A stretch of 64,000 nt of DNA from a candidate division KSB3 bacterium. GTDB taxonomy: Bacteria; Moduliflexota; Moduliflexia; Moduliflexales; Moduliflexaceae. Each line of letters opens with the position of its first letter. Within the stretch, counting starts at the first letter, position 1. Made by a program: the position numbers and the translations under genes. The stretch lies in contig PDSJ01000013.1 in NCBI GenBank assembly GCA_002748425.1, forward strand, positions 124,001 to 188,000, written 5' to 3'. The notes beneath the pieces were generated by a model. It had not been told where the DNA came from and did not search any database. It worked only from the letters and a program-made list of their open reading frames with translations. Below are positions 26,498 through 28,258 of the stretch, piece by piece.

Positions 26498-28258
26498 ATG
26501 GATCTCGTTTCATTACACATTGATGACTCTGCTGTCCAGGTGCCAAAGGGGACAACAGTGCTTGAGGCTGCCGGATTGCTTGATATCTCCATTCCCAACT
26601 TATGTATGCACCCGGGACTCAGGGCTCAGGGATTTTGCAGGATCTGTGTCGTAGAAGTCGCAGGATACGATCAGCTTCAGCCAGCCTGTGTCTTACAAGC
26701 AGAAAACGGCATGTGCGTCCACACTTCCACGAAAAAAGTTGTCAGATCGCGGCGCATGAGTCTTGAAATGATTATCGCCCAGCATCCCATGCGCTGTTTA
26801 ACCTGTGCTCGTAACGGCACATGCCGTTTGCAAGAACTGGCTAGGCAATTCGGCATTCAATCTTCCCGATTTTTCAGAAGGGATGCCGCCTTGGACGAGG
26901 AAACATCTGTCCATCTTCCAAGGTCGGTCGATGAAAACAGTCCGGCGATTTCTCACGATCCGAGTATGTGTATCCTGTGCGGCTTGTGTGTTGAAGCTTG
27001 TCGGAATCTCCAGCATGTCGATGTCATTGACTTTGCCTACAGAGGCGTCGCCCGAAAGATCGAAGCTGCCTTCGGACAAAATCTGGGACAGGTTGAATGC
27101 ACGGCTTGCGGACAATGCGTGCAAGTGTGTCCGAGCAATGCCTTTTACGAAAAGCAGGAAGGCCGCAGCGTGTTACATGCCCTGCAGGATCCCGACATCC
27201 ACGTCGTTGCACTTCTCTCACCGATGACCGCTGTCTCTCTGGGAGAAGAGTTCGAGTGCAGTGCAGGACGCCAGTTGAGCCCACAGCTCATCGCTTCATT
27301 GAAAGCCCTCGGGTTCAACAAAGTATTCGATGTGGCGGTCGGTGCCGATCTGCTGATCATGGAGGAGGCCTATCAACTCCTGAACCGCTTTAAAAGCGGG
27401 CAACTCCTGCCGATGATTTCTTCATCGAGTCCGGCCTGGATTAAATATGCCGAGCACTTTTATCCTGATATGCTGCCATTACTCTCTCCCTGCAAAAGCC
27501 CTGTCCAAGTGCTGGCCTCCCTGCTGAAAAGCTATTATGCTCAACAGCATTCTCTTGCCCCTGAGCAGATATTCAGCGTCTCAATCAGTCCGTGCACAGC
27601 GGAAAAATTTGAACGCACTCGTCCCGAGTCAACGTTCAATGGCCATGCGACGCTTGATGCCTGTCTGACAACAAAAGAGCTGGCTTCTCTGCTGAGAGGC
27701 AATCTGGGAGAGCACTTTGTTGCAGCCGAAGCGCAATCGTTCGACGCGCCTTTTGACCGCGCTTCCGGAGCCGGAATGCTTTTTTGCGGAGCCGGCGGTA
27801 TGCTTGAAGGCATCATGCGTACGTTTTTTGAGCTGTACACGGGAAAACGCTTAAAGAAACCGGAATTCCCGACAATGCGCAGCCCTGGGGGCTTCAAGGA
27901 AATCAGTTTGAAACTTGGCGACCAAAGCTTCTCTGCGGCGATCGTTCACGGAACCGGAACAGTTCGACGCTTACTGGAAAAAATTACGAAAGAAAAAAAG
28001 CAGTACCACTATATTGAGATCAAAGGCTGCCCCCAGGGCTGTGCTCGCGGCGGCGGTCAACCGCTTCCCTGGGACGAAGAGACGATTCTGAAACGTACGC
28101 AAGCCCTCTACGACCTCGATGCCGCTCAGACGATCCGCAAAGCGCATGAGAACCCGACGGTGAAAGAGCTGTATCGTCAAGTTCTCAAAAAACCGGGAAG
28201 CCCCAGGTCGAAAAAATTATTGCATACAAGTTACACTCAACGACAAAGGTATTTATAA
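26498..28258 (+). CDS. [FeFe]-hydrogenase large-subunit-like protein with non-canonical H-cluster motifs
   Basis: 586 aa; [2Fe-2S] ferredoxin (PNLCMHPGLRAQGFCRICVVEVAGYDQLQPACV), HPMRCLTCARNGTC, two 4Fe-4S sites (MCILCGLCVEAC, CTACGQCVQVCP), H-domain SSSSPAWIKYAEHFYPDMLPLLSPCKSP, SPCTAEKFE, KGCPQGCARGGGQP. Confidence 0.88.
   Translation: MDLVSLHIDDSAVQVPKGTTVLEAAGLLDISIPNLCMHPGLRAQGFCRICVVEVAGYDQLQPACVLQAENGMCVHTSTKKVVRSRRMSLEMIIAQHPMRCLTCARNGTCRLQELARQFGIQSSRFFRRDAALDEETSVHLPRSVDENSPAISHDPSMCILCGLCVEACRNLQHVDVIDFAYRGVARKIEAAFGQNLGQVECTACGQCVQVCPSNAFYEKQEGRSVLHALQDPDIHVVALLSPMTAVSLGEEFECSAGRQLSPQLIASLKALGFNKVFDVAVGADLLIMEEAYQLLNRFKSGQLLPMISSSSPAWIKYAEHFYPDMLPLLSPCKSPVQVLASLLKSYYAQQHSLAPEQIFSVSISPCTAEKFERTRPESTFNGHATLDACLTTKELASLLRGNLGEHFVAAEAQSFDAPFDRASGAGMLFCGAGGMLEGIMRTFFELYTGKRLKKPEFPTMRSPGGFKEISLKLGDQSFSAAIVHGTGTVRRLLEKITKEKKQYHYIEIKGCPQGCARGGGQPLPWDEETILKRTQALYDLDAAQTIRKAHENPTVKELYRQVLKKPGSPRSKKLLHTSYTQRQRYL

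Follow-up and report, generated by a model that had tools for sequence, protein, structure and literature searches.

A degenerate HydABC-type [FeFe]-hydrogenase gene cluster with a CheW-HydC fusion in Moduliflexota

The HydABC complexes of T. kivui (8a6t), A. woodii (7q4v) and T. maritima (7p5h) share their three subunit types with a gene cluster in the stretch of KSB3 DNA analyzed here (the window, 64,000 nucleotides in all). In the [FeFe]-hydrogenase CpI, K358 contacts the [2Fe] unit, and positions such as C299 and C300 in the window protein are cited below in CpI numbering. In HydS, which comprises groups C and D and includes TmHydS and TamHydS, C299, M353 and M497 are replaced (PMC10055695); these proteins retain the cubane cysteines and the residues that hydrogen-bond [2Fe], bind the H-cluster, and have been proposed to be linked to signal transduction (PMC10055695, PMC8163306). 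Model enzymes in which only the proton-transfer Cys has been changed to Ser retain 0.004 to 16 percent of H2 oxidation (PMC9563086); a C299S change taken alone is therefore no proof of lost function. Nar1, which acts in eukaryotic cytosolic Fe-S assembly, is a hydrogenase-like Fe-S protein without H2 chemistry (PMC6006210). The organisms considered here are also those of Sekiguchi 2015, the main text of which credits the two named KSB3 species with more than 60 methyl-accepting proteins, notes that some of their hydrogenase genes adjoin signal transduction genes, raises a role in chemotaxis from this proximity, and predicts H2 as a fermentation product for both genomes (PMC4312070). That main text contains no motif analysis, subunit loss or CheW-HydC fusion.

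The last gene of the window cluster, hydA′, encodes a homologue of the hydrogenase catalytic subunit that departs from canonical enzymes in all three of the following motifs:

26498 to 28258, plus strand: hydA′, degenerate [FeFe]-hydrogenase catalytic subunit homologue, 586 aa
27419 to 27439, plus strand: L1 of HydA′, SSSSPAW rather than TSCCPGW, with Ser at CpI C299 and C300
27587 to 27613, plus strand: L2 of HydA′, SPCTAEKFE rather than MPCTAKKFE (M353S and K358E)
28022 to 28045, plus strand: L3 of HydA′, KGCPQGCA rather than MACPGGCx (M497K and A498G)

The translated ORF reads ISSSSPAW at L1, SPCTAEKFE at L2 and IKGCPQGCARGGGQP at L3, and alignment places the Ser codons TCG (27425-27427) and AGT (27428-27430) at C299 and C300, respectively. 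A preliminary description of the window had reported this ORF as a hydrogenase homologue with SSSSPAW in place of TSCCPxW, had located the same two Ser codons, and had pointed to a changed Met and Lys in L2 and to a changed Met-Ala pair in an L3 that keeps both cysteines; the ORF and the alignment bear out each of these points. The accessory-cluster motifs that it had considered intact are indeed so, with all ligands present for the [2Fe-2S] and His/Cys sites (C36/C47/C50/C64 and H96/C100/C103/C109) and for the two 4Fe-4S sites (C158/C161/C164/C168 and C201/C204/C207/C211). Three cubane ligands are also kept, C366, C511 and C515, equivalent to CpI C355, C499 and C503; retention of accessory and cubane ligands was read from four degenerate and two canonical HydA proteins, all of which keep them. 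Miscalled codons, which the preliminary description had named as a way in which its claim might fail, do not account for the motif, as SSSSPAW is also encoded by UASB14 (TCC AGC) and UASB270 (TCA AGT), and the different Ser codons in three assemblies rule out sequencing error.

HydA′ aligns nearly end to end with the HydA1 proteins of T. kivui and A. woodii. The AF2 model of HydA′ (pLDDT 86.4) superimposes on T. kivui HydA1 (8a6t_A) with a TM score of 0.92, the overall fold being kept. Judged as a group A [FeFe]-hydrogenase, the protein falls under the curated NCBIfam cut-offs (649.6 versus 765 for NF040763 and 385.3 versus 405.95 for TIGR02512), both of which are exceeded by the two canonical HydA proteins of the window genome. 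As a guess, the introduced Glu 358 and Lys 497 might pair within the emptied pocket.

Orthologues of HydA′ were compared across five Moduliflexota genomes, namely the window genome, G001 (UASB270), which belongs to the same family as the window genome, G002, G003 and UASB14. UASB14 is Ca. Moduliflexus flocculans, and UASB270 is Ca. Vecturithrix granuli. According to the main text of the published study, UASB14 and UASB270 are its KSB3 genomes (PMC4312070). The broader comparison rests on 92 near relatives of HydA′ (77 best matches in scanned species genomes, 13 found by searching related genomes and the two canonical HydA proteins of the window genome), a sample outside which groups B to G lie. 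The preliminary description had placed weight on loss of the first cubane ligand, C300, and this emphasis proves to be misplaced. Ser occupies the position in 56 of the 92 relatives and in A. woodii HydA1 (7q4v), and so C300S is common background that does not single out HydA′; it was dropped as a defining feature. What emerges instead as lineage-specific and, on alignment, diagnostic is the set K358E, M497K, A498G and M353S or T, which is present in all five Moduliflexota orthologues; C299, K358 and M497 are retained throughout the relatives (92/92), as is M353 in all but two (90/92). C299S is found in three of the five orthologues (window, UASB14 and UASB270), and G002 and G003 retain the Cys within TSCSP. 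Phylogenetic placement, which had been suggested as a check, puts HydA′ within a five-member Moduliflexota group on one side of a branch with support of 100/100, and the three C299S proteins group with the same support. Together, the tree and the distribution of C299S fit a stepwise loss.

Among the relatives, TSCSP rather than TSCCP is thus the majority form, even though the Cys that it lacks would be expected to ligate the cubane. A Cys at CpI A321 was considered as a substitute ligand and rejected, given that it occurs in 53 of 56 TSCSP proteins but also in 30 of 36 TSCCP proteins, and that the position is Thr in G002 and G003.

The preliminary description had proposed a search for the hydrogenase maturase genes hydEFG, and the outcome divides between genomes: in the window genome, hydE, hydF and hydG adjoin a canonical hydA on contig C48, but no HydE, HydF or HydG over cut-off was found in G001, G002 or G003, the four genomes searched all being of the phylum. 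The window genome also carries two additional HydA genes whose L2 and L3 motifs are ordinary and which have Cys at C299, while no second H-domain protein was detected in G001 to G003, where HydA′ is the sole HydA-like protein. Chance absence of the maturases is unlikely because these three genomes are 93, 97 and 95 percent complete, respectively (G001 having 11 percent contamination). HydA′ is therefore retained in genomes unable to make the [2Fe] unit and must have a [2Fe]-independent use there, an argument not directly applicable to the window genome, which has hydEFG. In V. granuli (G001), no [NiFe] large subunit, canonical HydA, HydE, HydF or HydG was found, and with this gene content the H2 production predicted for the genome finds no support (PMC4312070). 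NiFeSe_Hases (PF00374) scores over cut-off in G002 and G003, in which H2 metabolism of another type is possible.

The preliminary description was confined to hydA′, and although the alteration of that gene stands, it had missed two upstream genes that are altered to the same degree. The nearer of these, hydB′, encodes a homologue of HydB/NuoF in which the following features were assigned, the motifs by sequence comparison:

24577 to 26424, plus strand: hydB′, degenerate HydB/NuoF homologue, 615 aa from the ATG at 24577
24577 to 24735, plus strand: Cys-rich CCxxC prefix domain of HydB′ (NF040902), with eight Cys shared by all five orthologues
25249 to 25287, plus strand: GRGKHGELVKKKW where GRGGAGFPTGxKW is expected (FMN/NADH loop)
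25372 to 25413, plus strand: CNAHEAYEASIKDR where CNADEGDPGAFMDR is expected (FMN site)
25627 to 25665, plus strand: APSGYLAGQPTAL where GAGAFVCGEETAL is expected
26152 to 26178, plus strand: LCGQCTAGR rather than SCGKCTPCR, lacking the third N3-cluster Cys

The longest ORF begins at a GTG at 24529. HydB′ matches PF01512, PF10531 and PF10589, with scores under the curated NuoF cut-offs. When set against 102 NuoF/HydB sequences, all five orthologues display eroded FMN/NADH motifs, with the GFPTG loop lost, the FMN-site Asp replaced by His and the third N3 Cys absent. The C-terminal domain with two [4Fe-4S] clusters, which both canonical HydB proteins of the window genome have, is missing from HydB′. 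Erosion is greater in the window lineage, as G002 and G003 retain the Cys residues of the thioredoxin-like domain and the EGDP of the flavin motif. NF040902 matches all five orthologues (best E 6.5e-9; the window protein is under the curated cut-off), and its eight invariant Cys possibly form another metal site.

Upstream of hydB′ is a gene in which a CheW adaptor domain is joined to tandem helical domains of the kind found at the N terminus of HydC and NuoE:

22958 to 24511, plus strand: cheW-hydC′, CheW adaptor with tandem HydC/NuoE N-terminal helical domains, 517 aa
22976 to 23374, plus strand: CheW domain, aa 7-139 (Pfam, PDB profile and Foldseek)
23417 to 23587, plus strand: NuoE/HydC-like helical repeat R1, aa 154-210
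23768 to 23935, plus strand: NuoE/HydC-like helical repeat R2, aa 271-326
24032 to 24205, plus strand: NuoE/HydC-like helical repeat R3, aa 359-416
24329 to 24508, plus strand: NuoE/HydC-like helical repeat R4, aa 458-517

The CheW assignment is secure (PF01584, 71.6 bits against a cut-off of 23.5), and the protein differs from a CheW adaptor, which its N-terminal domain represents, by approximately 375 additional residues bearing the repeats. All four repeats align to one N-terminal helical part of the HydC alignment, with single-template hhalign E-values of 5e-8 (R1), 2e-4 (R2, the shortest, over 25 columns), 6.8e-6 (R3) and 4e-4 (R4) that are meaningful only relative to the CheW-domain control (E 0.14). 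All five orthologues are matched by the NuoE/HydC family model PF01257 (best E 1.8e-9), the window protein alone being under cut-off. A profile of four orthologues matches formate dehydrogenase gamma in the PDB (E 2.3e-4) and, over the same stretch, HydC of A. woodii, T. kivui and T. maritima (E 0.017 to 0.55). The AF2 model is of low confidence, and Foldseek recovers CheW firmly and NuoE/HydC-type chains at E 0.26 or worse. The cluster encodes no separate HydC that has a [2Fe-2S] thioredoxin domain; the helical N-terminal type alone was found, fused to CheW.

Among the matches listed from 392 genomes, full-length fusions are limited to four Moduliflexota; the remaining matches listed mostly stop close to the C-terminal boundary of the CheW domain, with position 199 of 501 as the furthest limit for any of them. 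CheW was not found adjoining HydA at the other HydA loci examined, and the fusion is retained in all five Moduliflexota genomes. In G003 (L035:6869-8460), the frame is broken after repeat 3, and repeat 4 lies in another frame, which contains a stop. CheA is present in the four genomes searched (4/4), with 3 to 8 copies of its dimerization domain per genome.

The cluster is preceded by a conserved neighbor:

21900 to 22883, plus strand: rluD-like pseudouridine synthase (Pfam), conserved left neighbor, with the order kept in four other genomes

The order rluD, CheW-domain gene, hydB′, hydA′ is common to the window genome, G001, G002, G003 and UASB14, and in the window the successive intergenic gaps are 74, 65 and 73 bases. 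The three-gene cluster is under purifying selection, with dN/dS between G002 and G003 of approximately 0.08 for hydA′, 0.12 for hydB′ and 0.18 for cheW-hydC′, most wider pairs being saturated at synonymous sites. Promoter and terminator scans returned matches at chance level.

Relative to HydABC, then, HydA′ shares the domain order, fold and accessory-cluster ligands of HydA, but the H-cluster pocket, the FMN/NADH site and one N3 Cys are altered, HydB′ lacks its C-terminal clusters, and HydC takes the form of helical repeats fused to CheW. H2 chemistry has very probably been lost in HydA′, and HydA′, HydB′ and CheW-HydC′ probably form a three-subunit complex; a signaling role through CheW is plausible, the case for it being evenly poised. 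The degrees of confidence given for these three claims are judgments rather than computed values. The best account of the three genes (22958 to 28258), judged slightly more likely than not, is that they specify a complex derived from HydABC that has no H2 chemistry and informs CheA of the redox state. Such a sensor of electron state, with CheA as its target, is the simplest reading because the H2 and NADH ends appear to be lost, the relay is kept, and CheW is fused to the remainder.

In such a scheme, the complex would have an NAD-linked HydABC-type [FeFe]-hydrogenase as its ancestor; its two catalytic ends would have been dismantled and the remainder coupled to the chemosensory system. HydA′ would retain the relay of [2Fe-2S] and [4Fe-4S] clusters, and in the H domain probably a [4Fe-4S] site of some kind, but would neither carry nor use a [2Fe] subcluster. 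NADH binding by HydB′ would be gone, and FMN binding probably gone too in the window lineage, while the helical domains of CheW-HydC′ presumably dock on HydB′ and HydA′. Ferredoxin, we infer, would be the input to the complex, such that it or another low-potential carrier would set the oxidation state of the relay, which could in turn alter how the complex is shaped or assembled, a change that might pass through CheW to the CheA kinase. More generally, and more tentatively, a HydABC/complex I-like module without both catalytic sites could, through the joining of its HydC-type subunit to CheW, be feeding redox information from the cytoplasm into a chemosensory array, with an adaptor rather than a receptor bringing the signal. 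Against the redox-sensor reading, hydEFG of the window genome could offer a diiron unit to HydA′, the relay may be discontinuous because some HydB′ Fe-S ligands are lost, the AF2 model of CheW-HydC′ is poor, and the last CheW-HydC′ repeat is out of frame in G003.

The same evidence for lost catalysis (the pocket, the HydB′ motifs and the missing maturases) would be accommodated by a non-catalytic Fe-S complex that does not signal at all, acting as an electron relay or scaffold, with CheW serving for positioning or structure only. Nar1 demonstrates that hydrogenase-like proteins without H2 chemistry exist (PMC6006210), and HydA′ resembles Nar1/NARF as a hydrogenase-like Fe-S protein put to a non-H2 use, by analogy only. 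The retention of the CheW fusion in five genomes, from organisms with several CheA and, in the two named species, more than 60 methyl-accepting proteins (PMC4312070), argues against a purely structural CheW, and this alternative is considered unlikely.

A HydS-like H2 sensor, in which HydA′ would bind a low-activity H-cluster and report H2 to CheA, is disfavored and rather improbable, though still conceivable in the window genome. Its appeal lies in the shared replacement of C299, M353 and M497 (PMC10055695), in the adjoining signaling gene, in hydEFG of the window genome and in the residual H2 oxidation of Cys-to-Ser enzymes (PMC9563086). Because HydS shares them, those three changes alone do not separate HydA′ from HydS. 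Other differences remain: C300S and K358E mean that the cubane Cys and [2Fe]-bonding residues, which HydS keeps (PMC10055695), are not all kept in HydA′; TmHydS has a PAS domain, and none was found in HydA′ by Pfam scan; and HydA′ persists in three genomes without maturases. HydA′ is set apart from HydS by K358E, by maturase absence in those three genomes, and by a partner with an eroded FMN/NADH site together with the CheW-HydC fusion, features that the preliminary description had not set against HydS.

A decaying relic or assembly artefact is highly improbable and already contradicted; the more eroded motifs of the window lineage compared with G002/G003 and the G003 cheW-hydC′ frameshift are in keeping with decay, but hydA′ and hydB′ are full-length in five assemblies with differing Ser codons, gene order is conserved, and dN/dS is well below 1. 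Least probable of all is a functional hydrogenase with an unusual active site, for although HydA′ keeps the overall fold and three cubane Cys, and TSCSP occurs in A. woodii HydA1, a member of an isolated HydABC complex, this would have to accommodate K358E, M497K and C299S combined, an eroded NADH/FMN partner and three genomes without maturases.

If the redox-sensor reading is true, a hydrogenase complex can become an electron-state sensor for behavior, providing an energy-taxis route without counterpart in the literature searched. A hydA annotation need not mean H2 metabolism, V. granuli being a case in point, and the gradation between G002/G003 and the window lineage supplies naturally occurring variants with which to examine residue requirements of the diiron site.

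Elsewhere in the window, an NrdD-like protein with an ATP-cone (29248-31149; also L033:12934-14880 and L050:15516-17405) is kept in three genomes. Its PF13597 match reaches only position 507 of 562, ending before the expected C-terminal Zn/glycyl-radical part, and it may be another case of an enzyme homologue having lost its catalytic function. In the window, the gene adjoins nrdR- and nrdJ-like genes. Another window gene (14245-16410) encodes a protein of 721 aa that has two universal-stress (Usp) domains and matches DUF4032 weakly.
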